From the IMG/VR virus record IMGVR_UViG_3300011270_000016, positions 1 through 28,851 of that record: a stretch of 28,851 nt of DNA; one strand, written 5' to 3'. A program made the translations under genes and the position numbers. Within the stretch, counting starts at the first letter, position 1; every line of letters begins with the position of its first letter. This document shows positions 6,026 through 26,474 of the stretch, in pieces. The notes beneath the pieces are model-generated. The model was not told the DNA's origin. It did no database searches and saw nothing but the letters and a program-made list of their open reading frames with translations. The DNA is from a virus.

Positions 6026-6052
6026 TTTCTATCGCTCGCCCATCTCGCTCAC

Positions 6053-8584: not shown

Positions 8585-8587
8585 GCC

Positions 8588-10339: not shown

Positions 10340-10360
10340 CTAAGTCCTCCTCAAAAAAAG

Positions 10361-11419: not shown

Positions 11420-11422
11420 GTG

Positions 11423-11680
11423 CTATTCCTCCATCTTCGAAATCGCAATCGTTTTTCGCGGGCGCGCCGCGTCGCGCGCGGCCTCCGCGGGCGGAGCGAT
11501 TTCCACTTCCGCGTGCGGCGCCAGGACGTTTTCGAATTCGCCGCGCGTGATGGGCGAGCCATCCAGCCATTTGTCCGCCGTCTCGCCGGCCGCCAGAATC
11601 AGCGAGCATCGCCCGTGAGAGAAGGCCAGCGCGCCGCCGTTCTTCGTCTTCACCGCCACCAGCTCCTCGCGATTCGTCAT
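11423..11680 (-). CDS. Small hypothetical protein in the head-tail junction region
   Basis: This 85-residue protein has an N-terminal strand-rich half (VAVKTKNGGALAFSHGR) and a disordered Ala/Arg-rich C-terminus. Its stop is 3 bp from the tube gene start, and the ribosome site of the tube gene lies in its last codons. No family is recognised. The equivalent position in other siphophages often holds a small neck or tail protein. Confidence 0.55.
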   Translation of the reverse strand: MTNREELVAVKTKNGGALAFSHGRCSLILAAGETADKWLDGSPITRGEFENVLAPHAEVEIAPPAEAARDAARPRKTIAISKMEE

Positions 11681-11693
11681 TGTCGAAAACTCC

Positions 11694-12173
11694 TCACTGC
11701 AAATATCTCGGCGTCACTTTCATCGCGATTTCCGCGTGATGGCACAGCACCTTGTGCATGCCCACTTCTGCGAAATTGAAGGGCCCGCGCAGCTCCGGCG
11801 GATCCGCCGTCTGCACGAAGCCATTCAGCTTCGTTCCTCCCGGCCCCGCCCGCCGGTCGGCGTTGATCGCCTGCAGCACGCCGTCCACGATCAGGTCGAA
11901 CATCTCTTCCGTGTCGTCCGCGTCCTTCACGCCGTAGAAGCCTTCAATCACCAGCGTGTCCACCTGGTCCGTGAAGTTTTGGTTGACCACGTTATCCGTC
12001 AGCGCCGTCATCTCGCGGTAGATGTGCCAGAAGTGCAGCCGCCCGTCCGCCGCCGTCAGTTGCGCCATGTCGATTTCGGCTGTCAGGTTGCGCCGGTAGG
12101 TGTATACGTTCGTCACTCCGCTCACCGTCTTCATGCGCGCCGCGATCCGCGCCTTGATGTCCTTCAGCGCCAT
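11694..12173 (-). CDS. Putative tail terminator (lambda U-like position)
   Basis: This 159-residue protein starts with a helical ALKDIKARIAARMKTVSGV segment followed by TNVYTYRRNL, a pattern seen in tail terminator and minor tail proteins that begin with an Ile/Arg-rich helix. It directly follows the gp10-like gene (stop and start adjoin) and precedes the tube gene. Terminators cap the tube at the head-proximal end. Family assignment rests on order, size and the N-terminal pattern. Confidence 0.55.
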   Translation of the reverse strand: MALKDIKARIAARMKTVSGVTNVYTYRRNLTAEIDMAQLTAADGRLHFWHIYREMTALTDNVVNQNFTDQVDTLVIEGFYGVKDADDTEEMFDLIVDGVLQAINADRRAGPGGTKLNGFVQTADPPELRGPFNFAEVGMHKVLCHHAEIAMKVTPRYLQ

Positions 12174-12701
12174 CTATTTTCTGCCCAGTCCCACGGCTTC
12201 GAGCGCTTTCCCGATCTGCGCCTGGAAGATTCCCGTCAGCTCGCCTTCAAGCTGCGCCAAGGCCCGCGCGAACATCCCGAACGCGGAGACGCCGCGCTGC
12301 GCGATTTTCCGCGCCACCGCGAACGCGATCGAGAGCGCCTGCCTCTCCGTCCCTGGCGAGAATTTCTTTTTCACCCACAGCAGCAGCGCCGAGGGCGGAG
12401 GAAAGTGCGGCCCCGTTCCCGCTTCGACATAGCCCGCATACTGGTCCGCCGGCGCGCCCGCGAACACCACCGCGCGGGAAATTCCCGCTTCCTGCGAAAC
12501 CTGAAACGTGATGCTGTTCACCAGGTTCCCCGTCGCCACCGCCGCCGGCCGGCCCAGATAGCTGCTCGAAATCTTCTCCTTCACCAGCGCCTCCGCGCGC
12601 GCTCCGGCTACCGCCAGGCCGTTCCGAACGCCCGTCGCCACCGCCGCCTTCACGCTCGCCGTCGCCGTGTCGAATCCGCGAATCGTGATCCTCATCGCCA
12701 T
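12174..12701 (-). CDS. HK97 gp10-like tail completion / neck protein
   Basis: This 175-residue protein has the run GYVEAGTGPHFPPPSALLLWV in its middle (the last residues are given by position, about 95-115), typical of the HK97 gp10/tail completion family. In that family a Tyr/Ala-rich segment ending in GT-PH-PP precedes a Trp-containing helix. The N-terminal half is helical with many Ala residues. It sits between the connector and terminator genes, the usual place for this family. It would help join the tail to the head. Confidence 0.8.
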   Translation of the reverse strand: MAMRITIRGFDTATASVKAAVATGVRNGLAVAGARAEALVKEKISSSYLGRPAAVATGNLVNSITFQVSQEAGISRAVVFAGAPADQYAGYVEAGTGPHFPPPSALLLWVKKKFSPGTERQALSIAFAVARKIAQRGVSAFGMFARALAQLEGELTGIFQAQIGKALEAVGLGRK

Positions 12702-12715: not shown

Positions 12716-12830
12716 GTAGCGGCGGCCTTTAGGCCGCCATCTTTCCTGCTCTTGTAGCGGCCGGGCTTTAGCCCGGCATCTGTTTTCTCCGTGCCCTCCG
12801 CGCCCTCTGTGGTCTCTGCGTTAAATTCTT
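12716..12830 (-). repeat. Triple repeat cluster between connector and completion genes
   Basis: Three different repeats are packed into one intergenic spacer. A hairpin GGCGGCCT-TT-AGGCCGCC lies at 12721-12738, a hairpin GCCGGGCT-TT-AGCCCGGC at 12760-12777, and a CACAGAGG-type 9-bp array at about 12787-12826. Each hairpin is preceded by GTAGC and followed by ATC. None is followed by a T-run on the - strand. Confidence 0.9.
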
Positions 12831-12834
12831 TCTT

Positions 12835-13554
12835 CTATCTCGAAGCCTTCCGATGCGTCAGCCGGTCCAGACCCATGCCCAGCGTTTCGTGGATACTTCC
12901 CGTCGCGATCGCCGGCCCCACTTCCGTGGCTTTGTCGTCCGCCGGAATCCCCAAATGGTTGAAGTAGCGTTTCGCCGCCGCCTTCGCCAGACCGGCGTAT
13001 TCCTGGCTCTTCGTCCGGTAGTTCACCGAATCCGCCATGATGGTCGCATCGCCCGTCTGCGCGTAAACGCCCGCCAGCGCTTCGTAGCAGAGCGCCGCGG
13101 CCCAGTCGCACACCGCCTCAAAGTCCACGTCCGGCACCGTCGAGGCGTCGCTCTTGTGCCGCGCCGTCCAGGTAATCCGTACCGTGTCGCTCGCCCCCGG
13201 CGTCGACGCCAGCAGCATGATCTGCAGTCCCGTCGGCGAGCGGTAGAGCTGGAAATCCTCCTCGAGCACCAGGCTCGGCGGAATGATGCCGATCGGAAAC
13301 TCGATCGTCCGAATCGTCGAGAAGCCATCCTCGAAGCTTTCGAGCGTCGGTCCCGCTCCGATCGACGGCGTCGCGATCAGCGCCGTCCCGTTGCCCGCCT
13401 GGTCGCTCACCAGTTCCCGCGGGCGGTCTTTCGAGTATCGCTGCAGGATCGCCTGCTGCAGCAGCGCGTCGCGGTCGCCCGAGGGCAGCTTGCCCACCGC
13501 GTCCCGGAGGACGACGTCGCGCTGCGCCTGGAATTGATCGAGCGTCTTCGTCAT
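12835..13554 (-). CDS. Putative head-tail connector protein
   Basis: This 239-residue protein lies between the capsid region and the tail completion gene. It has helical N- and C-terminal parts and a central strand-rich section (EFPIGIIPPSLVLEEDFQLY). The C-terminal helix region (YRTKSQEYAGLAKAAAKRYF) resembles the pattern of connector proteins that report a Tyr/Ala-rich helix before a short tail. I cannot name a family with confidence. Its ribosome site is weak. Confidence 0.5.
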   Translation of the reverse strand: MTKTLDQFQAQRDVVLRDAVGKLPSGDRDALLQQAILQRYSKDRPRELVSDQAGNGTALIATPSIGAGPTLESFEDGFSTIRTIEFPIGIIPPSLVLEEDFQLYRSPTGLQIMLLASTPGASDTVRITWTARHKSDASTVPDVDFEAVCDWAAALCYEALAGVYAQTGDATIMADSVNYRTKSQEYAGLAKAAAKRYFNHLGIPADDKATEVGPAIATGSIHETLGMGLDRLTHRKASR

Positions 13555-13579
13555 CTTTCTTTCTCTTCGCCCTGTAGCG

Positions 13580-13632
13580 GCCGGGCTTTAGCCCGGCATC
13601 TTTCTTTCGCGCCCGCCTGCGGTAAGCAGGCG
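13580..13632 (-). repeat. Two hairpin repeats in the decoration-connector spacer
   Basis: GCCGGGCT-TT-AGCCCGGC occupies 13580-13597 and CGCCTGC-GGTAA-GCAGGCG occupies 13614-13632. The second has a GGYAA pentaloop like the hairpins at 9917, 26960 and 27021. Neither is followed by a T-run in the direction of transcription. Confidence 0.9.
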
Positions 13633-13639
13633 CATAAAA

Positions 13640-14116
13640 TCAACTTTCTTCCAGCACCAGGTGCAGATACACAGACAAATCCGCCGAAGCCGCGCCCGGA
13701 ATCGCCAGCACGTCCACGCGGTAGTAATCGCCCGGCTGCACGCGCACGCCCGCCTCGGGGCCGCCGAACGCCGGCGTCAGCACGCCGCTGCCCGATCCGC
13801 CCGTCGGCAGAATCACCGGGCCCGCCGCGTCGCGCCGGCGCTTGGTCGCCGCGTTGAAGGCGATGCTCGGCACGGTCGAAAAAATCGAAACCGTGTTGAG
13901 CTTCCCATCCACCGTCGTCGCGCCCGCCGTGGTCCCGATGTTCCCGAGGTACGTCTCCACTTCCACGATGCGCCCGCGAAATTCGAACTCATATCCGGCC
14001 ACGTCGTTTGCCACCGCCAGCGCGGCCGCCTTATGCAGGTGAATGACGACCCTGCGCGGGCCAAATTCGGCCGATCCGCCTGCCCGTGATGGCCCGGCAT
14101 CTTTTCCGTATTGCAT
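13640..14116 (-). CDS. Hypothetical structural protein next to the capsid gene, possible decoration protein
   Basis: This 158-residue protein begins at the ATG at 14116, which has AGGAG 6 nt upstream. A longer frame to 14140 would start at a GTG inside a hairpin repeat and is less likely. The protein is strand-rich, with a central GKLNTVSIFSTVPSIAFNAA segment and a C-terminal SADLSVYLHLVLEES. Its place immediately after the capsid gene is that of head decoration or cement proteins. The function is inferred. Confidence 0.55.
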   Translation of the reverse strand: MQYGKDAGPSRAGGSAEFGPRRVVIHLHKAAALAVANDVAGYEFEFRGRIVEVETYLGNIGTTAGATTVDGKLNTVSIFSTVPSIAFNAATKRRRDAAGPVILPTGGSGSGVLTPAFGGPEAGVRVQPGDYYRVDVLAIPGAASADLSVYLHLVLEES

Positions 14117-14137
14117 CGCGTTCTCCTCTTCTAGTGG

Positions 14138-14246
14138 CACAGGCTCTTAGCCTGTGTCCGAAATCTGCGGCCAGGGCCCCGGATCTCGCCCAGGGCCCCG
14201 CCGGAATCCCAATCGCTCCTGTAGCGGCGGCCTTTTTAAGGCCGCC
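14138..14246 (-). repeat. Hairpin and direct repeats in the capsid-decoration spacer
   Basis: CACAGGCT-CTT-AGCCTGTG lies at 14138-14156 and GGCGGCCTT-TTT-AAGGCCGCC at 14226-14246. Between them the 10-mer CCAGGGCCCC occurs twice, at 14171-14180 and 14190-14199. The spacer thus holds three repeat types in about 110 bp. Confidence 0.9.
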
Positions 14247-14252
14247 TTGTTT

Positions 14253-16949
14253 CTACGGCACCACTTCCTTGAACACCCCGCGGAAATCGATCGGCTTTCC
14301 GCCGAACACGAACTTCACCTTGTACTGCAGCTGGTCGTTCGTGAACTGCGTCCCCTGCGTCGGCAGGTTCGCCAGGAAGATTTGCGGCGTCTCGTAGCCG
14401 TCCAGGAAGCCGATCTCGAGGAACGGCGCGTTCCCCTGCATCGTTCCGCCGTACCAGTCGTTGACGTCCGTCAGCAGCGGGTTCACGATGATGTTCTCTT
14501 CGTTCACCCCGAACTTCTGGTACCAATTGTTCGTCGCCAGCATGTTGCGGTTGATCTGCATCGCCGCCGGCCGCAGGTCGATTGGGATCATGATCCAGTC
14601 GAGCGTCAGCCCAAGCCGGTTCGTCGAATCCTTCTCCGACTGCTTCGCCAGCGCGATCGCGCGGGTATCCAGCTCCGCCGAAGAGAGCGCCGTCACCCCC
14701 GTGTTCGTGTGCGTCGCGTGGAACCATGCCAGCCCGTCCGGATCGTAGTTCGGCGGCGTGATGAAGAAGTTGCTGATGAACGTCGCCAGCGTGTGCCGTG
14801 CCGCGCGCGCCATGCGGTTCGGGAACTGCGCGATCTTCTGCAGATCGTCGTTGCGGATGGTCTCTTCCGAGATGGTCAGCAATCCGCCCTTCTTCAGGAT
14901 CGAATAGGTGATTTTTTCGTCGGTGGGCTTCGCCAGCTCCGTATAGACTCCCGCTTCCGCCACCGTCGGCAGGTCGCTCAGGTAGCCCAGCCGCACGCGG
15001 TCCTGCGGCTTGTAGTCTCCCAGCCGCGTCGTGGTGTACAGCTTTTCGAGGTTCGGCACGATCTGGAACTCGATGTAGTCCTGGATCAGCTTTTTCGTCA
15101 GCGACGAAAGCAGGATGTTCGGGAAGTCCGTCGTGGCGATCGCTTCCGACACGCGGAAGAAGCCGCCCTGGCTGAAGGTCATTTCGCGGTCCCCGGTGCA
15201 GTAGCTGTACGCTTCGCGCAGCCCGCGGAACGCCCGCACTCCCTTGTCCTTCAGCGCTTCCTTCACCCCCATCATCGCGTCCATCGCCAGCTGCAGCTTG
15301 TCCTGGCTGTTGCGGCCGACTTCGATCGAGCCGGTCTCGCGCCCGATGCTCGCGAACGCCGCGTACGATTCGCGCACCTTCGCGATGAAGCCGTCGACGG
15401 CCTTGTCGTCCGCCACGTTGCCGTTGAAGTGTTCCCTCACGATGGACTGCGCCGGCATCGGCAGCTTCGATTCCGTCAGCTTCCGTTCCAGCGTCGCCGC
15501 GAAGGTGATTTTCTTCGCTTCGCCCAGCGCCTGCTGCGCCCGCAGCATCACGTCATTGTTTTGCGCCGCCAGCGCGGATCTCGCCGCCTCGGACAGCATG
15601 TCGGCCACGGCTCTGCCCGCCGCCGCGTCCGTCACCACCGCCGATGGAAGCTTCTCCGTCACCGCTTCGCTCACCCTCGCAAAGAATTCGAATTGCTTGT
15701 CGTCCGGACAGCTTTCGAACTCCTTCGCAAGCACCGAGGCGCGGTCGGCATCGATTCTCCGGAGCGCCTCGAGCACTTTTAGAATTGAATCACGCATGCT
15801 CGTTCCTCCTTGATTTCGGCCAGCGCCTTGCGGGCTGACGCCATTCCCCGTCGCTGCGTTTCTGGTCGCAACGGGTGAAATTCTTTTCACTGCTTTTTTC
15901 TGCAGCGCGGAAATCTCCGCCAGCGTGTCGCGCGATGCCGCCACCTGCAGGAACTTTCCGCCTGCTCCCGGCTCCGCGCATAGATCGAGCCCCACGAACT
16001 TCTGCAGCGCCGTGGCCACCAGCGCGGGCTTCCCTTCCACCTTCGCGCCTTTGAATCCGAAGTATCCGAAAATCGAAACGCTGAAGAGGTCCAGCTTGCC
16101 CGCCTCGCGCGCCGCCATCAGCTTCGCACGGATGTCGGTTTCGCTTCTCAGCAGGTTCACCGTCGCCAGGGCCGCCGCTCCCGCCATGCGCCCGTTCGAA
16201 AGCCACCCGGCCGTCAGCTCCGGTGCGTTCGCGCCGTCGCCCGTTTCCGGATGCCGCCTGCGGAAGCGCGCGCCGCTCGCCGCCTGCGCCACCTGCGCCA
16301 CCACTTCCGGCGGGAAATAGTGCGCCGCCATCACCTGGCCGCTCGCGTCTTCCACCGATCCGTGCGCCCAGCCCGATTCCATCACCTGCACTGGCCAGAC
16401 CCAGCCGTCCTGCGTCGACGCCTCCGTGGCCAGGAACTTCGCATGCTCCGCCACCGGCACATAGGCCGTCTCCACCTGCTGCGGCTCGCCGAATTTGATT
16501 TCGTCGCCGTCATCCGTGTAGCCGATCTGGTAAAGCTCGCCATCCGGCCCGCGCGCGATCACATAATCCGGAAACGTCTCGACCAAACAGAACCGCCGGT
16601 AGCCGCTCGTGTCCAGCCCGAAATCTTCGAGCAGCGCCTGGTCCAGCTCCTGCATCTGCTCTTCGTACGATTCGTCCGCCTCCGCCTCCGAAGTTTTCAT
16701 ACCGTGCTCGCTCGCGAACCCGCTCGCATCGATCCCGTATTTCTTCGCCGCCGCCAGCAGCTTCCGCGCCACTTTCGCTTTCGCTTCCGCCGGCAGCTGC
16801 GTCTGGTTGAAACGCGCCAGCGCGTCGCGAACATGCGCTTCATCCGGAATCGGCAGATGCCAGGTGCTGATGTCTTCGGGATCGCCGACGTACGCGAACG
16901 CTGAGGCGGGGTATTCCTTCCCCCCCACGCTCTTTGTTTTGCCTGCCAC
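14253..16949 (-). CDS. Prohead protease-major capsid protein fusion
   Basis: One open frame of 898 residues joins parts normally encoded separately. Residues ~16-75 (STWHLPIPDEAHVRDALARF and following) match DUF6582, often fused to phage proteases. Residues ~185-340 look like a prohead protease: HP at 233-234, FSVSIFG near 289-295, and a final LDLCAEPGAGGKFLQVAAS. Residues ~385-640 are helical, scaffold-like. The rest has HK97-fold capsid features (PNILLSSLTKKLIQDYIEF, FRVSEAIATTDFP nearby). The start is GTG with AGGAGG. An internal ATG at 15797 (residue 385) has a perfect AAGGAGG (15805-15811) 7 nt upstream, so a separate 514-residue capsid product is likely. Confidence 0.9.
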   Translation of the reverse strand: MAGKTKSVGGKEYPASAFAYVGDPEDISTWHLPIPDEAHVRDALARFNQTQLPAEAKAKVARKLLAAAKKYGIDASGFASEHGMKTSEAEADESYEEQMQELDQALLEDFGLDTSGYRRFCLVETFPDYVIARGPDGELYQIGYTDDGDEIKFGEPQQVETAYVPVAEHAKFLATEASTQDGWVWPVQVMESGWAHGSVEDASGQVMAAHYFPPEVVAQVAQAASGARFRRRHPETGDGANAPELTAGWLSNGRMAGAAALATVNLLRSETDIRAKLMAAREAGKLDLFSVSIFGYFGFKGAKVEGKPALVATALQKFVGLDLCAEPGAGGKFLQVAASRDTLAEISALQKKAVKRISPVATRNAATGNGVSPQGAGRNQGGTSMRDSILKVLEALRRIDADRASVLAKEFESCPDDKQFEFFARVSEAVTEKLPSAVVTDAAAGRAVADMLSEAARSALAAQNNDVMLRAQQALGEAKKITFAATLERKLTESKLPMPAQSIVREHFNGNVADDKAVDGFIAKVRESYAAFASIGRETGSIEVGRNSQDKLQLAMDAMMGVKEALKDKGVRAFRGLREAYSYCTGDREMTFSQGGFFRVSEAIATTDFPNILLSSLTKKLIQDYIEFQIVPNLEKLYTTTRLGDYKPQDRVRLGYLSDLPTVAEAGVYTELAKPTDEKITYSILKKGGLLTISEETIRNDDLQKIAQFPNRMARAARHTLATFISNFFITPPNYDPDGLAWFHATHTNTGVTALSSAELDTRAIALAKQSEKDSTNRLGLTLDWIMIPIDLRPAAMQINRNMLATNNWYQKFGVNEENIIVNPLLTDVNDWYGGTMQGNAPFLEIGFLDGYETPQIFLANLPTQGTQFTNDQLQYKVKFVFGGKPIDFRGVFKEVVP
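15795..15811 (-). promoter_or_regulatory. Internal ribosome binding site and start within the fusion gene
   Basis: AAGGAGG at 15805-15811 precedes an in-frame ATG (15795-15797) by 7 nt, optimal spacing. It lies at the protease-capsid boundary, exactly where two separate genes would normally meet. It probably gives independent, abundant synthesis of the capsid part. Confidence 0.8.
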
Positions 16950-16978
16950 GGCTCCTCCTTAGTTCTCGCCGCCCTGTG

Positions 16979-16998
16979 GCACAGGCTTTAGCCTGTGC
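16979..16998 (-). repeat. Hairpin repeat GCACAGGCT-TT-AGCCTGTGC
   Basis: A perfect 9-bp stem with a 2-nt loop lies in the spacer between the 117-residue gene and the fusion gene. It is the same family as the hairpins at 17371, 23574 and 24858. Confidence 0.95.
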
Positions 16999-17000
16999 GC

Positions 17001-17354
17001 TTACTCCTTCGCGCCGCCCTTGGCTGACTTCTTCTCCGGCTCAGGCGGCGGAATCGGGAACGAGTATTTCTTCCCGTCGATCGTCACCAGTTTCAGCACG
17101 CCGCCGGATGGCTGGCGATGAAGCACTTTCCAGTTCTCGATGCCCATCGCCTGCTCGTAGTTTTCCGGCTCATCCACCGCGAACAGCCGGTTGGCTTCGC
17201 GCGTGGCCACCGCGCGCTGCTCCGTTTCATCGCCCGGATAGTTCACCTCGGCCGCCCGGAACGCTTTCGCCCAGACCTGCTCCCAGCGGCCAGCGAAATC
17301 TCTCGGCATCCCTCCGAAGTGCGGTGCCGCCGGAACATTCACTTTGTCTGCCAT
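17001..17354 (-). CDS. Small phage protein, possibly ChaB-like
   Basis: This 117-residue protein has a helical N-terminal half with Trp/Ala/Asn positions (RWEQVWAKAFRAAE, then ATREANRLF) reminiscent of ChaB-like small proteins found in phages, then a basic C-terminus with a VTIDGKKYSFPIPPPEPEKK tail. GAGGAGG lies 5 nt before the ATG, so the gene is well supported. It lies between the minor head gene and the protease-capsid fusion. The ChaB resemblance is tentative, and its job is unknown. Confidence 0.65.
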   Translation of the reverse strand: MADKVNVPAAPHFGGMPRDFAGRWEQVWAKAFRAAEVNYPGDETEQRAVATREANRLFAVDEPENYEQAMGIENWKVLHRQPSGGVLKLVTIDGKKYSFPIPPPEPEKKSAKGGAKE

Positions 17355-17370
17355 CGCTTCCTCCTCAGCG

Positions 17371-17390
17371 GCACAGGCTTTAGCCTGTGC
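17371..17390 (-). repeat. Hairpin repeat GCACAGGCT-TT-AGCCTGTGC
   Basis: A second exact copy of the 20-bp hairpin lies in the next junction upstream, between the minor head gene and the 117-residue gene. Confidence 0.95.
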
Positions 17391-17412
17391 TCCTCTCTTT
17401 TCCTTACGCCGC

Positions 17413-18324
17413 TCAGCGGGTCACTGAAACCTCGAGCCCTGCGTCCTTCAGCGTCTTCAGCTGCGCCGGCGTCGGCTTCAGGTCGCTCTCGTCCATGTAC
17501 GGCGCCAGCAGGCAGTGGCAGTTGATGGTGTTCTCTGGCGACCCGTTCGGATCCCGCGGGTACATCAGCTCCTCGCCCCCCACCTCGAAGGAATCGCCCA
17601 CGTCCTGCACCTGCCCGCTCGCGATCATGTGCGAGATCCGCGGCACGCGCGACGCCATGATGTGGATCCACTGCTTCTTCACTCCCGGCACCCTCTGCTG
17701 CAAATCCTCGAGCCGCGCCTGCCCGGCGATCGAGTGCACCCGCAGGATCTCGTTCAGCGCGATGGTTTCCGCGCGGTCTCCGATCGGCCCGAAAAGCCCC
17801 GTAAATTTCTCTCCCGCCACCGCGCGCCCCACTTGCGCGATGATATCGCTCACCGATTGCCCGCCCAGGAATGCCCTTTGGATCGCCGCGTTCAGCTTCG
17901 CGCTCGCATCCTTCGAGAGTCCCGCAATCAGGTCCGCGGTGTAGCCTTGCGCGATCCCGAGCGCCGATTCCGAAACGCCCGCGAAAGAAGGCGTGGGCAG
18001 TCCGGCCCCTTTGAAAAATTCGTCCAGCGGCTGATCGATCCCGATCTCGCCCAGTTGGAACGCATCATCCTGCGCCGCCGTCACGTAATCCGAAAACTCC
18101 GATCCGAACTTCTTCAGCGCCCCATCGATCTCGCGCGCCAGCACCCGCAGTTGCGCGCCTTGAAAGCTCGCCGGATCCACGTTCGAAATATCGCCCACCA
18201 CTTTCTTCCGCGCCTCTTCGAGCAAACTCATCACGCGTTCGCGCACCGCCGGGCCAAACTCCCGCGCCTGCTTGATCAGCTCCACCACCTTGGCCGCGAA
18301 TTTTTCCTGCGCGCTCACCGGCAT
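17413..18324 (-). CDS. Minor head / head morphogenesis protein (Mu gp30, SPP1 gp7-like)
   Basis: This 303-residue protein follows the portal gene and carries the phage head morphogenesis domain in its C-terminal half. Visible elements are NEILRVHSIAGQAR (191-204), a His at 232 in RISHMI, GDSFEVGGEELMYPRDP (243-259) and the closing ETINCHC-type motif (ENTINCHC, 264-271). Such proteins sit inside the capsid by the portal and are often ejected. The N-terminal half is helical. AGGAAGG precedes the ATG within the end of the 55-residue gene, and the two genes overlap by 10 nt. Confidence 0.9.
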   Translation of the reverse strand: MPVSAQEKFAAKVVELIKQAREFGPAVRERVMSLLEEARKKVVGDISNVDPASFQGAQLRVLAREIDGALKKFGSEFSDYVTAAQDDAFQLGEIGIDQPLDEFFKGAGLPTPSFAGVSESALGIAQGYTADLIAGLSKDASAKLNAAIQRAFLGGQSVSDIIAQVGRAVAGEKFTGLFGPIGDRAETIALNEILRVHSIAGQARLEDLQQRVPGVKKQWIHIMASRVPRISHMIASGQVQDVGDSFEVGGEELMYPRDPNGSPENTINCHCLLAPYMDESDLKPTPAQLKTLKDAGLEVSVTR

Positions 18325-18482
18325 TCCTTCCTCTCGATGACGAACGCGTAGATCGGCACGTTATAGCAGTTCAAGGGAAGCTCGATTCGCACGAAGCCCT
18401 CCGGCTGCAACGTCACGAGCGCGAGGCGCTTCACCGCCTTGCAAAACGCGGAGAAATCGAGTCCTTTGGCCTGCCCGAACAT
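18315..18482 (-). CDS. 55-residue protein between portal and minor head gene
   Basis: This frame of 56 codons is too short for a usual gene list but well placed. Its ATG (18480-18482) shares one base with the TAA stop of the portal gene (TAATG), and its stop overlaps the next gene by 10 nt. The translation begins MFGQAKGLDFSAFCKAVKRL and ends in VIERKECR, with a central hydrophobic/aromatic segment (ELPLNCYNVPIYAFVI). The tight overlap on both sides suggests a real, translationally coupled gene. No family is recognised. Confidence 0.6.
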   Translation of the reverse strand: MFGQAKGLDFSAFCKAVKRLALVTLQPEGFVRIELPLNCYNVPIYAFVIERKECR

Positions 18483-19984
18483 TACTGCGTCACCTCCGTC
18501 GCCGGCGCCATGTCCTTCAGCGCTTTCGCCTTCTTCAGCGCGTCCGCCAGGTTCGCCTGCGGATCCAGCGCGTTCTGCTGGCTCGCGTCTCGCGCCGTCT
18601 TCGCCGCTTGCGCCTCATCGAATTCATCCGCGTCCACTTCCACGCCAATCTGCGTCATCACCGTGATGAAGAGCCGCGCCGCCGTCTCCGGCCGGATCCA
18701 TCCGCGGTCCTCGCCCGTTCCCGCCGCGTTCGCAATCGTCTGCAGGGCCGTCGAAGCCGCCACCATGTCCTTCACGCGCAGGTCCGGCACCTGCAGTTGG
18801 TAGGCCAGATTCGCCGTCCGAGAGAGCACGCCGTGCGTCACCGCCTGCTCGATCACGTAATCGAGGATCTGCGTCGTCATGCGCCGGAAAATGTTTTGCC
18901 GGCTCGTCAGCATCTTCCCCGTCGGCCCCGCCATTTCGTCCGCCGTCGCGCGGTTCGTGTTTCCCGCATCCGCGAAAAACCATGGCGGCAGTCCCGCTCC
19001 GCCCAGGCCGTAATTCTTCACCACGCGGTCCGCGTCGATCATGTCGGAGCCCTTCAGGTCCGGCGTGCGCGCCTCGATCGAGATCTGGTCGTTGGTCACC
19101 TCGACTCCGCCCTGCCGCGGCGGCGATTTCATCACCTTGTCGCGCAGCTTGTTCACCTGCGTCTCGTCCGCGCCCTTCGCGATGTAGTGCCACACGAAGG
19201 AATTCAGCAGCCGCACGCGGTCCGCGAAGTCGAACACCATGTTGTCGAAGACGTCTAGCCAGTCCGCCAGCGAAAAGATTTCGGAGATGCCCCGCGACGC
19301 CGCCTTCACCTTGTTGATCGCGAAGTAGAAGCAGTCGCCTTTCAGCTGCCCCCAGCTTCCGGATCCCAGGTCCTCGTCCACGTTGATGATCGCGAGCCGC
19401 CGTCCTTCGCTTTCTCCCACGCGCTCGCGCAGCCGCACCGCCGTCGCCGTGGTGATTTCCTGCGACACTTCGGTCTGCATCAGCCCGAACTGCACCGACT
19501 CGATCGATTGGGGGTCCACGTAGCCGAGCGTCACGAAGCCATCCACAGGATTCACCGCCGTCGGCAGGCACAGCTCGCCGAACACCAGCGTCTCGACCGC
19601 GTAGGTGTCCAGCATTTCCGCCATGTTGTTTCTCGGATGCTTCCAGAATCGGTCGATCACTTCCTGGACCTGGGGATCCTCCGCGATCGGCTTGAATCCC
19701 TCGCCCACCACGTAATCCACCATCACGCGGATGATCCGCCGCCCGAATGGCGTGGTCATGAAGAGGTAGAAGCACACCTGCTGCATCCGCTGGTGCATCG
19801 CCGGGTTCAGGTCGCGCATCGTCGCCGGCGAAGTGATTCGCCGGAACTTGGCGTCCTCGGAATCCCCCGCGATCAGCGAAAAGAGTTCCGGCGCCACCGC
19901 CTCCTTCGCGCTCGCGTTCTTCCGCTCTTCCTGCAGGCGATAGATCTTCGCCGCATCCCCGAGCTTGAGCAGCGTCAGCTCCAT
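18482..19984 (-). CDS. Portal protein
   Basis: This 500-residue protein would form the dodecameric DNA-entry ring. It follows TerL and precedes the minor head gene. The N-terminal third has the portal-like segment TPFGRRIIRVMVDYVVGEGF (about 79-98), then a strand-rich wing and a stem region. DAGNTNRATADEMAG around 340-355 precedes the helical crown (RRMTTQILDYVIEQAV). The C-terminus is an Ala/Asp/Gln-rich helix. I do not see a clear match to the Mu gp29 (DUF935) pattern, so the portal family is left open. Confidence 0.88.
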   Translation of the reverse strand: MELTLLKLGDAAKIYRLQEERKNASAKEAVAPELFSLIAGDSEDAKFRRITSPATMRDLNPAMHQRMQQVCFYLFMTTPFGRRIIRVMVDYVVGEGFKPIAEDPQVQEVIDRFWKHPRNNMAEMLDTYAVETLVFGELCLPTAVNPVDGFVTLGYVDPQSIESVQFGLMQTEVSQEITTATAVRLRERVGESEGRRLAIINVDEDLGSGSWGQLKGDCFYFAINKVKAASRGISEIFSLADWLDVFDNMVFDFADRVRLLNSFVWHYIAKGADETQVNKLRDKVMKSPPRQGGVEVTNDQISIEARTPDLKGSDMIDADRVVKNYGLGGAGLPPWFFADAGNTNRATADEMAGPTGKMLTSRQNIFRRMTTQILDYVIEQAVTHGVLSRTANLAYQLQVPDLRVKDMVAASTALQTIANAAGTGEDRGWIRPETAARLFITVMTQIGVEVDADEFDEAQAAKTARDASQQNALDPQANLADALKKAKALKDMAPATEVTQ

Positions 19985-20015
19985 TTGCTCCTGTCCGTTT
20001 CCTGCTCCTGTACCG

Positions 20016-20073
20016 GCCGGGCTTTAGCCCGGCATCCTCTCTTCGTCCTGTAGCGGCCGGGCTTTAGCCCGGC
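20016..20073 (-). repeat. Two copies of hairpin GCCGGGCT-TT-AGCCCGGC
   Basis: Copies at 20016-20033 and 20056-20073 are 40 bp apart in the TerL-portal junction. Both have an identical 8-bp stem and TT loop. Confidence 0.95.
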
Positions 20074-20078
20074 GTCTT

Positions 20079-21740
20079 TCAGCTCCACAGCGAACTCCTT
20101 TTCCGCTCGATCCGGGTGACGTGCCGTTCCTCGCCCCGTTCCGCCGCCGCCTGGCTCGCCACCAGCTGAGAGAGCACGCCGCGCGGCTCGCGCACCGCGC
20201 GCGGATCCGGAGCGTCCGCGTGCGCAAAGGCCGCCGCCGGCGCTCCCGCCGCCGCGAAGTCCGCCATCGCCTTCGCCCAGAAGGAATCCGCGTGCGCGTA
20301 AACTTTTTTCTTTTTCCCCCCGGCCGTCGCGGTGTCCACTTCGATTCGCGGCGCATCGAACTTCACCGCGCCGCCCGCGTATTCTTTTTTCACCGCCTGC
20401 AGCTCCTGCCGGATTTGCAGATCGTGCGGGATGCGGTTCCTTCCTTGTTCGAACCGCTGCTTCAATCGCACCGCCAGGTCTGTCTTGATCTTCACGCTTC
20501 CGCTCGCGGCCTGATACGCCGCCGGCACGTTGTCGCCCTTCGGCACGGAGCCGCCGAAGTTCAGCCCAATGACGTGGCCGGGAACTTTCGCGGCCAGAAA
20601 TTCGAAGAGTCCCAGTCCGATCCCGGTCGAGTCCATCGCCGTGCGGTCCGCCAGCTTCACCCACGGCAGCAGGAGATGCGCCTGGTCGTTGCTCGCGAAC
20701 TCGCCGTCCGGCGTGAAGAATGGCGCGCTGCTGAGCCGCAGCACCATCCGCGTCCACGCCACGTCGCCGATCTCCTCATCAAGCCAGGCGATGGTGCGGT
20801 CGCCATCGCGCCCCACGTCGATCCCCAGCGAAAGCTTCCCCATCGGCAGATAGCCGCTCGGCCAGTCCATCGTCGCCGCGGGATCTTCCGCGCGCGCGAT
20901 CAGCTCGAGCGCCAGCCACGATCCGACCGCCTTCAGGAACGCGCACAAAAATTCCTGCGCGAATGTTTCGTCATCCCCGCGATAGAGCTGGCGCATTTCG
21001 TTCAGATCGATGGGGCAACCCTCGGCGATCGCCATGTTGATGTCCACCCAGTGCCAGGACCAGGCGCCCTGCTTCGCTGGATTTTTCGCCGGAGCCGCGC
21101 CGTCGGCCACGCCGAACTCCCGCGCCAGGTCGAAGAATTTTCCGTGCTCTCCGTTCGGCGTCGAAAGGATGCGCATCTTGTGCCCCAGCGCGATCTGCCG
21201 GGAGACCGCCGCCCAAATCGAATAGGAATCCTCGTGGTGCGCGTATTCGTCCAGGATCACGTTGCCCGGATAGCCGCGCGCCGTGCGCGGATTCGAAGGC
21301 AGCGCCAGGATGCGCGAGCCGTTCCCGAAGTGCACCCGCGTCACCTGAATGTCGGTCGCGCCCAGCTCGTCCGCGAAAAGCTCTTGCGTCGTTTCCGCCA
21401 CCGCGCTCATGGCCTCGATGATCGGCGCCGCGCCTTTCTCGATGAATTCCTGCGAGCCGCTTTTCGAGTGGCTCAGAACCGTCCAGGTCGTTCCCGGATG
21501 CTCGATGCAGTCGAGCACCGCTTCCGCGGCCGTCGCGAACGAAAATCCGATGCGCGCGCTCTTCACCGCGCCCTTGAAGCGCGAATCGTCGTCGATCCAC
21601 CGCTGCTGGTACGGCCTAAGCTGCAGTACCGGCGGCAGACTTTCGCTCGACGGGCGGGAGCCCAAAGGTCCGCTCACGGAGACGATTGATGTCGTCGATG
21701 GTGAGCTTCCCGCCTTTCCCGATTTTCTTTGCTGCTTCAT
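20079..21740 (-). CDS. Terminase large subunit (Mu gp28-like)
   Basis: The packaging motor ATPase-nuclease has 553 residues as drawn. Motifs: LRPYQQRWIDDDSRF (41-55) as in Mu gp28-type terminases; a deviant Walker A, KSARIGFS (60-67); Walker B VILDEYAHHED (161-171); coupling motif ILSTPNG (191-197); RNase H-like nuclease acids D308 (LGIDVGRDGD), D370 (MDSTGIG) and D485 (HADSFWAK). The start is uncertain. The ATG at 21740 gives a 125-nt overlap with TerS and has a weak ribosome site, and its first ~35 residues are Ser-rich and unlike a terminase, so a non-ATG start near the TerS stop is possible. Confidence 0.92.
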   Translation of the reverse strand: MKQQRKSGKAGSSPSTTSIVSVSGPLGSRPSSESLPPVLQLRPYQQRWIDDDSRFKGAVKSARIGFSFATAAEAVLDCIEHPGTTWTVLSHSKSGSQEFIEKGAAPIIEAMSAVAETTQELFADELGATDIQVTRVHFGNGSRILALPSNPRTARGYPGNVILDEYAHHEDSYSIWAAVSRQIALGHKMRILSTPNGEHGKFFDLAREFGVADGAAPAKNPAKQGAWSWHWVDINMAIAEGCPIDLNEMRQLYRGDDETFAQEFLCAFLKAVGSWLALELIARAEDPAATMDWPSGYLPMGKLSLGIDVGRDGDRTIAWLDEEIGDVAWTRMVLRLSSAPFFTPDGEFASNDQAHLLLPWVKLADRTAMDSTGIGLGLFEFLAAKVPGHVIGLNFGGSVPKGDNVPAAYQAASGSVKIKTDLAVRLKQRFEQGRNRIPHDLQIRQELQAVKKEYAGGAVKFDAPRIEVDTATAGGKKKKVYAHADSFWAKAMADFAAAGAPAAAFAHADAPDPRAVREPRGVLSQLVASQAAAERGEERHVTRIERKRSSLWS

Positions 21741-22305
21741 TCGTTTCTTTCTCGGCGATTCGAATAATCTGTTCGAGCTTCTTGCTCTCCAGCTCCACGC
21801 GCTGTTTCGCGATGTCTGTCCGCTTGAACCGCGTGAGCACCAGCGCCAGCCCTTCTAGCGCTTCCTGGAACTTTGCCGGGTCCGCGGAGAGCCTCCTCTG
21901 CTTGAAGACCACGTCGGTCAGCGCGTTCTTCACCGATTCGTCCAGATTTTCGAAGCCCAGCGCGGCGAACTGCTCCACGATCTGCAGCGAAATCGCGCGT
22001 TCCTCGTCGGCCTCTTTGAGCTCCTGCACCATGCGCACGTCGTACCAGCGGTGCAGCGTCGTATGCGGGATGCGCTTGTCCGCGAAGTGCGAGAGCGCCA
22101 GCTCCGGATCGGACTCTTCGAGCTTTTTCCATTCGAAGTTTTTTGTCTCTTCCTCGATCTGCTCCCAGGTCAGCCATTTCGCGCGCCACTTGACGATCTG
22201 CTCGCGCCACTCGGTCGGCAATTTGTCGATCGCGAAGGGCTGCTGCGTCTCGCGCTTTTCTCCGGTGCGGGGCCGCCGATACCCCGGCTTGTGCTCGCCT
22301 TTCAT
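21616..22305 (-). CDS. Terminase small subunit (Mu gp27/DUF3486-like)
   Basis: This 229-residue, mostly helical, highly charged protein is followed by TerL. The segment IDKLPTEWREQIVKWRAKWL (26-45) and the following PHTTLHRWYDVR match the LP-x-E-R and S-x-L-x-R-Y pattern of the DUF3486 family, which supplies the small terminase subunit of Mu-like phages. This includes a predicted helix-turn-helix for DNA recognition. Its start overlaps the stop region of the preceding winged-helix gene. Confidence 0.7.
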   Translation of the reverse strand: MKGEHKPGYRRPRTGEKRETQQPFAIDKLPTEWREQIVKWRAKWLTWEQIEEETKNFEWKKLEESDPELALSHFADKRIPHTTLHRWYDVRMVQELKEADEERAISLQIVEQFAALGFENLDESVKNALTDVVFKQRRLSADPAKFQEALEGLALVLTRFKRTDIAKQRVELESKKLEQIIRIAEKETNEAAKKIGKGGKLTIDDINRLRERTFGLPPVERKSAAGTAA

Positions 22306-22617
22306 TCATTCCACTTCCACGGCGGGATTGCTGCTCGTTTTCTCGATGATGTCCCGCCCCCCCGGCGTGATCTGGATTTGCCGGATCGCGCTCGTCCCCG
22401 TCACCCTGTTTCGCTCCAGATCGAAATTGATCAGCCTGCGCTCTTGGAGGTCTTGCAGGATCTCGCGCACCAGGTTCACATACACGTCGAATTGCAGCCG
22501 CTCGAGCACGCCCGTCAGCGTCACGTCGTCCAGGCGATGTTTCTGCGATTCGTGGTTCTCGTAGATCAGCTTCAGCACCACGCCGCGAAGCCGCCGTTTT
22601 TGCTGCGGCCCCGTCAT
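22306..22617 (-). CDS. Winged-helix-like small protein before TerS
   Basis: This 103-residue protein has three predicted helices followed by a beta-wing (LINFDLERNRVTGTSAIRQI), a winged helix-turn-helix pattern. Its ATG overlaps the previous gene's stop by one base (TGATG). Mu-like phages carry a small winged-helix protein just before the terminase small subunit, which fits this position. A DNA-binding or packaging-related role is inferred. Confidence 0.6.
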   Translation of the reverse strand: MTGPQQKRRLRGVVLKLIYENHESQKHRLDDVTLTGVLERLQFDVYVNLVREILQDLQERRLINFDLERNRVTGTSAIRQIQITPGGRDIIEKTSSNPAVEVE

Positions 22618-23024
22618 CAGCTCGGCGCTCCCATTGCCGTCAGCCTTCTCAGAATTTCGTCGCTCTGCCGCGCCTGATGATTGATGGTCAGCTCCAGCTC
22701 CCGCGCGCGCTGCTCCATCGCTTCGTCGCGCAGCACCATCTTTGCCGCCAGGCCGCCCAGGTTCGTCGCCAGCAGCTCCGCCGCGGACACCGTGCGCTCC
22801 TGCACGGCCAGGAAGCGGTCGGCTTTCCGGTCGATCAGCACCATCGCGAAAATCAGCGCCGCGAAAAACAGGAATCCGCCGTTCAGCAGCAGCGGCACGA
22901 ACTCCGGCCGGTATCTGATCGCCTGGATGGCGGCGACCCCGATCGTCACTCCCGCGCCGCCGCCCAGTCCCGCCAGCGCCCAGCGGAATTTCCCCGCCTT
23001 CAGCGTGGTCCTCAGCTCGCTCAC
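22617..23024 (-). CDS. Two-TM coiled-coil protein, DUF2730-like position
   Basis: This 135-residue protein starts at the GTG at 23024, which overlaps the stop of the holin-like gene (GTGA) and is preceded by an AAGGTGG ribosome site. The upstream in-frame ATG at 23111 is not needed. Two hydrophobic segments (ALAGLGGGAGVTIGVAA, and FLFFAALIFAMVLI about residues 50-63) are followed by a charged helix to the C-terminus. Mu-like phages have a DUF2730 membrane/coiled-coil protein at this place. It could also assist lysis. Confidence 0.6.
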   Translation of the reverse strand: MSELRTTLKAGKFRWALAGLGGGAGVTIGVAAIQAIRYRPEFVPLLLNGGFLFFAALIFAMVLIDRKADRFLAVQERTVSAAELLATNLGGLAAKMVLRDEAMEQRARELELTINHQARQSDEILRRLTAMGAPS

Positions 23025-23563
23025 GGGCCCACCTTCGCGCCCGCCAGCAATTCCGTCTTGCGGTCGCTTCCGCGCGAAGATCCGAAGTAGTACGACGTCA
23101 CTCCCACCCACGCCGTCCCCAGTGTCCCCACCATGATGTTGGCCATGTCGCGCACTTCCGGCTTCACGCCGTGCACGAAGACGAAGAGCAGCGTCGCGAA
23201 AAATCCGAGCGTGATGGAGAACGCCAGGATCGCCGGCGTCCTGTCTTTCACCGCCGCTTCGCGTCCGCGCGCGCTGGCGCGGTCGTCCGCCATGATTTTT
23301 TCCAGGTCGTCGACCGAATCGATCTCGAGCTGCTTCATCTGCAGCGCGAACTGCTGCTCGCTCGTTTTCAGGTCGGCGATGAATTTCTGCTGGTCCGGAG
23401 TCTTCGCGAACGCCGCCGCCAAATCCTCGGCGCTTCCGATGTTCGCCCCGCCGGTCACGGCCGTCAGCACCGTCCCCGCCATCGCGCCCACCGGCCCGCC
23501 AAACTCCAGCGCCTTGGCCACGAAGGGCGCCGCCTTCTTCAGAAATCCCAGCACGTTCGCCAT
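23021..23563 (-). CDS. Holin-like protein (3-TM superfamily)
   Basis: This 180-residue protein has an N-terminal hydrophobic segment, a long charged middle (residues ~50-100) and two C-terminal membrane segments (about 108-132 and 142-158), followed by YYFGSSRGSDRKTELL. The DRASARGRE plus YYFGSS-GS-RK signature is characteristic of the 3TM holin superfamily found in phages and gene transfer agents. It would form or regulate the membrane lesion that releases the transglycosylase. Confidence 0.75.
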   Translation of the reverse strand: MANVLGFLKKAAPFVAKALEFGGPVGAMAGTVLTAVTGGANIGSAEDLAAAFAKTPDQQKFIADLKTSEQQFALQMKQLEIDSVDDLEKIMADDRASARGREAAVKDRTPAILAFSITLGFFATLLFVFVHGVKPEVRDMANIMVGTLGTAWVGVTSYYFGSSRGSDRKTELLAGAKVGP

Positions 23564-23573
23564 GCTCTCAGTG

Positions 23574-23593
23574 GCACAGGCTTCAGCCTGTGC
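23574..23593 (-). repeat. Hairpin repeat GCACAGGCT-TC-AGCCTGTGC
   Basis: This copy has loop TC and a perfect 9-bp stem. It lies in the spacer between the 62-residue membrane protein and the holin-like gene, and ends 19 bp before the ribosome region of the latter. Confidence 0.95.
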
Positions 23594-23607
23594 TCCTCTC
23601 CATCCCC

Positions 23608-23796
23608 TTACTGATAGATCTTGTCGTACACGAATCCGGCCAGCGCCACGAACAGGCCTACCACGCCCACGCCCTTCGCAATGTGCGCCGTCACTCCCTG
23701 CGCATCGATCAAATAGAGCATCACCGCCGCCAGCGCGATCCCCACGAATACCAGAAACGCCGGAAGCTTCACGAACTTCTCGATATCAAACGCCAT
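23608..23796 (-). CDS. Small two-TM membrane protein
   Basis: The ATG at 23796 has GAGGAGG 6 nt upstream and gives a 62-residue protein (MAFDIEKFVKLPAFLVF...). Two hydrophobic segments, roughly residues 11-30 and 38-56, make it holin- or antiholin-like. It is one of several tiny membrane proteins between the lipoprotein and the holin-like gene. Confidence 0.65.
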   Translation of the reverse strand: MAFDIEKFVKLPAFLVFVGIALAAVMLYLIDAQGVTAHIAKGVGVVGLFVALAGFVYDKIYQ

Positions 23797-23806
23797 GCGG
23801 TCCTCC

Positions 23807-23908
23807 TCATCTGTAGTTGTCCGGATTGCTGAAGAAGCGAATCCCAGCAATGATCGCGCCGACCACCGCCGTAAGAAGCAGCGCGACCACGACGTACTTC
23901 AAATGCAT
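23807..23908 (-). CDS. 33-residue single-TM protein
   Basis: This short frame starts MHLKYVVVALLLTAVVGAII and ends in a polar FFSNPDNYR tail, with one clear membrane helix. AGAGG lies just upstream of the ATG, the start overlaps the end of the preceding gene, and the stop is 10 nt before the next start. It has the form of a small membrane regulator or holin accessory. Confidence 0.5.
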   Translation of the reverse strand: MHLKYVVVALLLTAVVGAIIAGIRFFSNPDNYR

Positions 23909-24087
23909 TTCTGCCTCTTCATCTGAAAAAAGAAAAACGCGTCGCCCACGATGTGCACCGCCATGCCCACGCCCATCGTCAGCAGCCCGGCGAGGAGATC
24001 GGCGCTCAGGCCGATCGCGAATCCGACGGCCGCCGCCACCGCCCCGCCAATCTGCATCGGCAATCCGATCGCTGCCAGGTCTTTCAT
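23899..24087 (-). CDS. Small membrane protein of the lysis cassette
   Basis: The ATG at 24087 overlaps the previous stop (ATGA), and GAGGCGG lies 7 nt before it. The 62-residue product is nearly all hydrophobic, with two Gly/Ala-rich membrane helices (about 8-28 and 33-53) and a basic Lys/Arg tail. A holin-like role is possible. The much longer frame extending upstream to 24282 is not used because its first 65 residues are antiphase of the coupled genes. Confidence 0.55.
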   Translation of the reverse strand: MKDLAAIGLPMQIGGAVAAAVGFAIGLSADLLAGLLTMGVGMAVHIVGDAFFFFQMKRQKCI

Positions 24088-24191
24088 GCCGATTCCGCCT
24101 CGAGCTTCTCCAGGAACCGCTGCCATTCCCTTTTTGTAAGCAGCACGTATTCGATGTGCGTTCCGTTCTTCACCAAATGGATCCTGATCAT
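24084..24191 (-). CDS. 35-residue protein coupled to the lipoprotein gene
   Basis: The ATG at 24191 overlaps the lipoprotein stop (ATGA). The translation is MIRIHLVKNGTHIEYVLLTK plus a charged, helical WQRFLEKLEAESA end. It is soluble, with a strand-strand-helix look. The same ATGA overlap at its own stop couples it to the next gene. Function unknown. Confidence 0.5.
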   Translation of the reverse strand: MIRIHLVKNGTHIEYVLLTKREWQRFLEKLEAESA

Positions 24192-24385
24192 TTCTCCCCG
24201 CACCTGAATCTCGTCGTGCTCTTCGGGCAACGCACTTCGATTCCCCCGGCGATGTCTTGCTTGTAGCAGCCTGGGCCAACATAAACCTCGGCGCCGGCGC
24301 ATCCTGGAACTGCCGCGCGCCGCTTCTGCGCGGGACAACCCATCATCGAAATGCTCGCCAGCATCATCATCGTCGCGAAGATCAC
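24188..24385 (-). CDS. Small lipoprotein, possible o-spanin-like
   Basis: This 65-residue protein starts at a GTG (24385) that overlaps the stop of the nuclease gene (GTGA). The N-terminus is a hydrophobic signal with a lipobox-like Cys at 17 (SISMMGC). The mature part is small, Cys-rich and positively charged. Outer-membrane spanins are small lipoproteins of this kind in lysis cassettes, but no paired inner-membrane spanin is identified. Confidence 0.6.
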   Translation of the reverse strand: MIFATMMMLASISMMGCPAQKRRAAVPGCAGAEVYVGPGCYKQDIAGGIEVRCPKSTTRFRCGEK

Positions 24386-25581
24386 CGCTCGCTTGATTCA
24401 CGTCCTCGCTTTTTGTTGCATTCGCCGAGGCCGCATTCCCGGTCCTCGCAGATCTCCTCGCACGCGCAGGTTCTGGTCCGCTCTGCGTCCTCTGCGCTCT
24501 CCGTGCCCTCTGCGCTAATTCCCGGTTTTTCCACCGTAGCTGCTTTTACGCCGCCATCCGGCTCTTCGTCTGGCTTTTGTAGCGGCGGCTTTATGCCGCC
24601 ATCCGGCTCTTCGTCTGGCTTTTGTAGCGGCGGCCTTTTAAGACCGCCATCTTTCTTCGTCCTGTAGCGGCCGGGCTTTAGCCCGTCATCCGTCACTCCC
24701 GACGCAGGTGCCTTCTCGCACCGCACGCCCAGAAGTCTGGTCAGCCCGATTCTGTAGAAGGCAAGCCCGAGCGCCGTGGGCTCCGCGTGCCATCCCTTTC
24801 TTGTCCACTGCCAGCAATCCCATCGCGCGGCCCAGTGCGGGGCATCCGCCGATGGTGGCACAGGCTTCAGCCTGTGCAGGCCCGCCTCGAGGTAAACCGC
24901 GTACCAGTCCTGCGCGACCTTCTGCTGCGCGTCTTTCAGCTCCATCTTTCCCGCGCATACTTGCTTGTGCAGCCAGTTCTCGACCGCGTCTTTTTCGTGC
25001 GCGCCCGGATGCGCATAGTAGGGCTGCGGCATCAGGTTCTCTTTCACGTCCGCGCCGGCCAGCTCCAGGGAGTCGACGTGATCGATTTCATACATCGGCA
25101 GCTTCGTCTTGTGCCCTTTATTTTTCTTCGCCCATTCCTCGTCCGTGTCGCAGACCACGCTTCCGGTGCAGAAGACCGCGCGGTTGAACCCGTGCTTGTC
25201 CACGCCGTATTCGGCGAAGACTTCTTCCTTCAGCGCTTCCGTCGTGTTGCGGAACTGATCCGTCCATCCGGCCGGCTGATCGCAAATCTGCGATTTGTCC
25301 GTCGTCCGCACCGCCCCGGGAGTCCCTTTGAGGTCGTTCAGTGCCACGCCATCGTGGAAGCGATACCGCGCCGCCGCCTGCGCGAACGCCGCCTGCCCGC
25401 AGGCCATGCACACAAATGTTAGGAGAAGCGCTGGAAAAAGACTGCCCGAGGTCCTCCCAAGTCTCTTCACCGCTATCCGCAGTCGTTCGTGATCCCGGCC
25501 GGGCGGGCCGTAAATCGTCCCGGACCGGGGCGCCAGAAACGCCCATTTTTTCTCGCGGGATGCAGTCTCTGCCTTCCCCAT
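24382..25581 (-). CDS. Signal-bearing HNH nuclease with a repeat-derived C-terminus
   Basis: The 399-residue frame has an AGGAGG site 9 nt before its ATG. A ~45-residue basic N-terminal region precedes a hydrophobic segment (48-66) with a signal-peptidase-like AFA-QA site, so the protein is exported or anchored. The HNH core reads YEIDHVDSLEL...ENLMPQP (164-187; H168, N182), then a helical domain ending in AQDWYAVY (223-230). Beyond this the family usually ends. Here the frame continues ~170 residues through a hairpin repeat (LEAGLHRLKPVPP), several PPLQKPD-type repeat translations and a CACAGAGG array, to a Cys-rich end. The downstream lipoprotein start overlaps the stop. Confidence 0.75.
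   Translation of the reverse strand: MGKAETASREKKWAFLAPRSGTIYGPPGRDHERLRIAVKRLGRTSGSLFPALLLTFVCMACGQAAFAQAAARYRFHDGVALNDLKGTPGAVRTTDKSQICDQPAGWTDQFRNTTEALKEEVFAEYGVDKHGFNRAVFCTGSVVCDTDEEWAKKNKGHKTKLPMYEIDHVDSLELAGADVKENLMPQPYYAHPGAHEKDAVENWLHKQVCAGKMELKDAQQKVAQDWYAVYLEAGLHRLKPVPPSADAPHWAARWDCWQWTRKGWHAEPTALGLAFYRIGLTRLLGVRCEKAPASGVTDDGLKPGRYRTKKDGGLKRPPLQKPDEEPDGGIKPPLQKPDEEPDGGVKAATVEKPGISAEGTESAEDAERTRTCACEEICEDRECGLGECNKKRGRESSER
24481..24523 (-). repeat. CACAGAGG-type 9-bp array inside the nuclease frame
   Basis: On the - strand the region reads AATTAGCGCAGAGG followed by CACGGAG and GCAGAG units. It is translated in the nuclease frame as SAEGTESAEDAE. Confidence 0.85.
24550..24688 (-). 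repeat. Tandem 45-bp repeats and hairpins inside the nuclease frame
   Basis: GCCGCCATCCGGCTCTTCGT and the 20 bases after it occur twice with a 45-bp period, starting at 24550 and 24595. The repeats contain hairpins GGCGGC-TTTAT-GCCGCC (24584-24600) and GGCGGCCTT-TT-AAGACCGCC (24629-24648, one mismatch). An imperfect GCCGGGCT-TT-AGCCCGTC copy follows at 24670-24687. The whole block is open in the nuclease frame and gives repeated LQKPDEEPDGG peptides. Confidence 0.9.
24858..24877 (-). repeat. Hairpin repeat GCACAGGCT-TC-AGCCTGTGC within a coding region
   Basis: An exact copy of the family found between genes at 23574 lies here inside the nuclease frame, where it encodes part of GLHRLKPVPP. 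It falls close to where the HNH domain family normally ends. Confidence 0.95.
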
Positions 25582-26300: not shown

Positions 26301-26474
26301 CGCGCGCTTTCAGGAGCGGGCCGGGAAGGACATCCTGGCGGAAATCCGCCGGCCCGCCGGTTCCAGCCATCCAGCGCAGTTTGCGGGATTTCTAAATCGC
26401 CCGTGCGGAGTTTGCGTTATTTTCTTTGTCCGGCTTTTGTAGGTGCGGCCTTTTAAGGCCGCCATCCGGGTTCT
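26301..26474 (-). promoter_or_regulatory. Candidate late control region
   Basis: This 174-bp gap separates the helix-turn-helix gene from the lysis and head genes. It holds the near-identical 12-mers GCGCAGTTTGCG (26374-26385) and GCGGAGTTTGCG (26405-26416), 31 bp apart, about three helical turns. Between them lies a 12-bp dyad GATTTCTAAATC (26387-26398). A hairpin GCGGCCTT-TT-AAGGCCGC sits at 26445-26462. In Mu, an activator gene precedes the late lysis promoter in the same way. No clear -35/-10 pair is seen. Confidence 0.5.

Follow-up and report, generated by a model that had tools for sequence, protein, structure and literature searches.

GTAG-tagged REPs carry an unpaired GTAG (GTRG) tag at one end, a stem of 5-13 bp and a short loop that is often TY. 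Head-to-head dimers predominate in the genomes described and head-to-tail ones are rare, and tyrosine transposases of Acidobacteria were already mentioned there (PMC3733652). The RAYT gene together with its cognate REPs is referred to as a REPtron (PMC8266576, PMC2817692). Related short repeats, the REPINs, are known as well (PMC3116915, PMC8049555), and a model paper considered their replicative horizontal transfer to be unlikely (PMC8049555). The window analyzed here is the whole of a 28.9-kb IMG/VR virus contig from a soil phage, in which the minus strand carries a late operon with terminase, portal, head morphogenesis, capsid, connector and tail genes.

Tagged hairpins in the phage late region

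The original prediction placed 15 short hairpins of three families at named positions in the window and described them as concentrated at gene junctions. All 15 were found at these positions, nearly all of them at junctions. The window contains 15 perfect stems of 8 bp or more with 2-3 nt loops, whereas the 60 dinucleotide shuffles of the window that defined the chance level averaged 2.1 (maximum 7); when a GTAG or GTGG tag was also demanded, 11 were counted against a mean of 0.18 (maximum 1). The tag was GTAG or GTGG in 13 of the 15 copies, as in GTAG-tagged REPs, and was mutated in the other two, at 17371 (GCGG) and 20016 (GTAC). The GC-rich stems were mostly 8-9 bp long with a TT or TC loop in most copies, again agreeing with this superfamily, and were broken or shortened at 24584, 24629, 24670 and 26445, so that tag or stem was altered in 6 of the 15 copies (two tags, four stems). 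The GTAGC seen in front of the hairpins was confirmed as the REP tag, always on the plus strand, while the ATC behind them was mostly confined to families A and B. The GGCY-TT-RGCC core assigned to all families was absent from family B, and YT-TT-AR describes the shared core better. A search of Rfam gave no matching family.

All copies lie on the plus strand. The first is a family-B copy (12716-12738), consisting of GTAGC, GGCGGCCT-TT-AGGCCGCC and an ATC tail, followed head-to-tail at a distance of 39 bp by a family-A copy (12754-12777). Another family-A copy (13574-13597), with ATCTTTCTTTC on both flanks, is located between the genes 13640-14140 and 12835-13554. A family-C copy with a variant loop (14134-14156) precedes the gene after the capsid gene, and a family-B copy with a longer loop (14221-14246) lies directly behind the capsid gene stop. 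Between 17001-17354 and the capsid gene, a family-C copy (16976-16998) occupies a gap of 51 bp, compared with 9 bp in the relative L008. The copy tagged GCGG belongs to family C (17367-17390; between 17413-18324 and 17001-17354), and that tagged GTAC to family A (20010-20033). The latter forms a head-to-tail pair, 40 bp apart, with a second family-A copy (20050-20073), and this pair separates the terminase and portal genes. A family-C copy (23571-23593) then lies between 23608-23850 and 23021-23563. Farther on, a degenerate copy additional to the 15 (24536-24555) opens a head-to-tail array continued by a family-B copy with a shortened stem (24580-24598), a family-B copy with one stem mismatch (24624-24648) and a family-A copy with one stem mismatch (24664-24687). 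It is followed by a family-C copy at 24855-24877. The last, a family-B-like copy with a shortened stem (26439-26462), falls outside the range originally given; its flanks resemble a shorter REP-free spacer in the relative L006.

Ten of the 15 copies lie in or at gene gaps, four (24584-24877) inside the 3' extension of the minus-strand ORF 24382-25581, and one near a gene end; the tail genes (1-12700) contain none. Close pairs are all head-to-tail. The window holds neither the head-to-head dimers typical of GTAG REPs nor REPIN-type inverted pairs, all copies being on one strand.

The 15 copies, grouped in 11 clusters, all lie antisense to the genes. If both orientations were equally likely, such agreement among 11 clusters would have a probability of about 0.001. 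The T-rich tail of the phage REPs consequently faces the antisense direction. The REPs are the strongest terminator-like sites of the window, all on the plus strand, where five of them are terminator-like; none is so on the minus (gene) strand, and a U-run is lacking in gene sense. Co-directional gene pairs in the sampled host loci, with genes approximated by long ORFs, carried REPs both ways (41 sense, 26 antisense). Both orientations were also present in the viral contig L086, which has a terminase gene (3973-5436) and seven host-type REPs at 3594-10366. Two readings of the uniform orientation remain, namely single-strand-specific insertion and selection against insertions that terminate the late operon. 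Strand-specific insertion as the sole cause is possible, but the REPs of L086 argue against a strict strand rule.

REP families and RAYT genes in Acidobacteriota

The original prediction interpreted the hairpins as host-like REPs spread by a host REP system, a reading that their absence from the host chromosome would have contradicted. When counted in likely host relatives, the families were present. The family-C pattern occurred mostly in Acidobacteriota, with few matches in other phyla, among the matches listed. Exact family B was found in six genomes of one Terriglobia family, which includes a MAG named Candidatus Acidiferrum typicum. Allowing at most one mismatch, it was found in 18 of 81 genomes of this family, and the reversed pattern, applied to them as a control, gave zero matches. 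Exact family A was detected as one copy each in two of the 399 genomes of the class sampled (G039 and G216), where it shares the CATCTT tail with the phage, and in 7 of 34 genomes with at most one mismatch; the family-A 27-mer had no match in the genome contigs and viral contigs searched. In the sampled Acidobacteriota loci the hairpins were repeated and mainly intergenic, as expected of GTAG REPs in bacterial genomes, with a T-rich 3' tail and with pairs mostly in +- orientation. Tagged hairpins numbered 0.5-1.8 per 10 kb in the sampled chromosomes of likely host relatives; the same rule gave about 3.5 per 10 kb for the window with two non-REP hairpins left out.

The check proposed for a TnpA-REP (Y1 transposase) gene in likely host relatives was also positive, as RAYT genes were present in 11 of the 12 REP-bearing genomes tested. 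Indeed, a RAYT of G039 with HUH (PDHLHF) and YIRMNP motifs sits between hairpins with the family-A stem (L239, L269), which is the arrangement of a REPtron. A cognate RAYT flanked by the same REP was found for family A in this genome only, and not for exact families B and C; the window itself encodes no Y1 transposase (RAYT). The occurrence of the families in Acidobacteriota, the RAYT genes there and the one flanked by the family-A stem supported the proposed host REP system well. In addition, a terminase 71% identical to that of the window was found on a phage-like 20.4-kb contig in a MAG of the REP-bearing bacterial family, indicating that this group of phages corresponds to the hosts of the REPs. 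Among the host loci compared, no homologous pairs were available for detecting empty REP sites in related genomes, and a directed search found none spanning a REP.

Empty sites in phage relatives and rarity among viral contigs

Relatives of the phage were found with its terminase large subunit (20079-21740, minus) as the query. Tagged hairpins occurred only at background level in the loci of 80 terminase relatives (1.15 Mb), and a looser hairpin pattern had no match in 21 full relative records. In the closely related G411, whose terminase is 90% identical and which is syntenic with the window from 1104 to 28578, the locus examined contained none of the hairpin families. Hairpins shared with other phages at matching positions, which would have pointed to old conserved signals, were not found in the related phages. 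Alignments to relatives broke at the hairpins, and several hairpin sites had empty counterparts. The terminase and portal genes, separated by two REPs in the window, overlap in L008, L009 and L011, and TGGAGCTGA is present on both sides of the REP pair; other junctions of the window are about 40-140 bp longer than in L008. The protein encoded by ORF 24382-25581 (minus), a conserved protein with a YEIDHVDSLEL motif, gave a further example. The 24858 copy begins exactly at the end of its conserved part and is translated as LHRLKPVP. Together with the array that follows, this copy supplies part of a long C-terminal extension (LHRLKPVPP, DGGLK repeats) that is new and replaces the native tail; the related proteins stop about 15 residues past the conserved part with a tail of their own. 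As the relatives lack the hairpins and show empty sites, these comparisons of sequence indicate that the hairpins are recent host-derived insertions and not old phage signals. Flank repeats of at least 9 bp accompanied only 3 of the 11 clusters, one of them GC-rich and weak and the clearest being TGGAGCTGA, and a general target-site duplication was rejected on this ground.

No tyrosine integrase, sought as evidence of lysogeny, was detected in the 21 relatives, and almost no family matches were obtained for the outer genes of G411. Separately, a palindrome AATGC...GCATT with a varying centre was observed in the window (27655-27672) and in L007 (4812), L008 (4343), L011 (5231) and L016 (9632); it perhaps marks a corresponding site in the relatives and, unlike the REPs, may be a true phage signal.

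In keeping with the statement that phages seldom carry so many REPs, nothing comparable appeared among the matches inspected when the E. coli and P. putida REP consensus sequences were compared with 50,697 phage records. The E. coli consensus matched 74 of these records. The 25 inspected consisted largely of unannotated short fragments, Salmonella records of chromosome size, two records labelled Campylobacter and one transduced locus, along with one 33-kb E. coli phage (two entries) with a single REP place. The P. putida consensus matched none of the 50,697. Of 2.9 million viral contigs, only seven besides the window matched any of four patterns of its own families. In one of these, L089, which has portal and tail genes, a REP adjoins the portal stop, and L086 is possibly a second REP-loaded phage or prophage. 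The REPs lie near contig ends in L331 (5-27), L332 (112-135) and L088 (53-75); assembly breaking at REPs may therefore leave REP-bearing phages under-represented. No report of a REP-loaded phage was found among the titles listed in the literature searched; REPs of this type are already known.

Origin of the insertions and comparison with known systems

The copies match the host families in tag, stem, loop and often, in A and B, the ATC tail, and are therefore of host type. Probably, GTAG-superfamily REPs of an Acidobacteriota (Terriglobia) host were recently copied into the phage, with a host RAYT as the putative agent. The RAYT, a Y1/HUH enzyme acting on single-stranded tagged hairpins, would insert single or head-to-tail REPs, in units of about 40 bp each, into phage DNA during phage replication or while the phage DNA is resident in the cell. 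Selection would then retain those insertions that fall at junctions between genes or at the 3' ends of genes, possibly with the further demand that the T-rich tail be oriented so as not to terminate transcription within the late operon; effects on mRNA, if any, would be incidental. Four observations count against this explanation, namely the presence of exact family A in only 2 of 399 class genomes, the flank repeats at 3 of 11 clusters, where a Y1 enzyme would be expected to leave none given that larger target duplications are not made by IS200/IS605 elements (PMC2817692), a second class of repeat that needs another explanation, and the lack of REPIN-type inverted pairs in the window.

This second class is a purine-rich 9-bp ACACAGAGG-like repeat that forms five arrays, at 9010-9045, 12786-12820 (minus; adjoining the 12754-12777 REP of the pair 12716-12777), 24481-24515 (minus; beside the REP array), 26695-26730 and 28230-28247 (minus). 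All five are on the minus strand, in gene sense, most behind GAATTA-like leaders. The strict pattern occurred at 13 per Mb in the sampled Acidobacteriota host loci versus none in 1.15 Mb of virus relatives, and a looser pattern gave 7.7 (host loci) versus 0.9 (virus relatives). The repeat could not be traced in a literature search. Its distribution suggests repeated uptake of host intergenic repeats by the phage, and as it has no tagged hairpin, a RAYT offers no obvious explanation for it.

The arrays bear on another possible route, by which host junction repeats, including the 9-bp repeat and the flank duplications, were copied by recombination or template switching with no RAYT involved. Such copying would account for a host-type repeat that lacks a tagged hairpin yet forms five arrays in the window and none, by the strict pattern, in relatives, and for the duplication of TGGAGCTGA at the terminase-portal junction. 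We regard it as rather unlikely, because the REP set alone has the tag and structure recognised by RAYTs (PMC8266576) and the family-A stem does occur in linkage with a RAYT. A role in the phage itself, as RNA elements selected for stabilising or processing the polycistronic late mRNA and for setting expression gene by gene, was judged distinctly improbable. Nearly all copies do lie between genes transcribed together, following a stop or immediately ahead of a ribosome-binding site, and their folding energy in gene sense is -10 to -18 kcal/mol, but selection against gene disruption would give the same placement, and 80 relatives with the same gene order have tagged hairpins only at background. 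The original suggestion of such mRNA elements found no positive support, given these hairpin-free relatives, the missing U-run in gene sense and the altered tags or stems in 6 of 15 copies.

An origin as old conserved signals of the phage, for instance packaging sites or intrinsic terminators, is scarcely conceivable; five hairpins are terminator-like on the plus strand, but none is on the minus strand, which encodes the genes, and the hairpin-free relatives with their empty sites contradict this. An assembly artefact, in which repeats joined unrelated pieces, is just as hard to credit. Three other viral contigs (L088, L331, L332) have a REP near an end, but most junctions in the window have phage genes on either side, in the order of the relatives and with both genes intact. 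Beyond the copying of host REPs itself, a bolder and decidedly tentative reading is that intergenic repeats of the host use the phage as a working vehicle. REPs and the 9-bp purine repeat would be inserted repeatedly at junctions, separating genes that overlap in relatives with both frames kept, bringing along purine tracts resembling ribosome-binding sites and travelling between hosts, so that REP populations would not be strictly vertical.

REPs have been thought to be tied to the host chromosome, and the phage shows that this repeat class can reach a virus. With some 15 recent insertions and several empty sites in relatives, it provides a natural experiment on unit, orientation and target choice. 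The findings suggest that REPs could help in assigning phages to their hosts and that REP families might be carried from one bacterium to another by phages. Compared with the GTAG-tagged REP superfamily (PMC3733652), the window copies have the same GTAG/GTGG tag, 8-9 bp stem, TY loop and intergenic position, but differ in residing on a phage, in head-to-tail arrays and in a single orientation. The REPtron is matched by the family-A-stem hairpins that flank the RAYT of G039, whereas the phage carries REPs with no RAYT, so that their mobility would depend on the host. With REPINs (PMC3116915, PMC8049555) the window copies share small size, lack of autonomy and presumed copying by a RAYT, but they form no inverted pairs.
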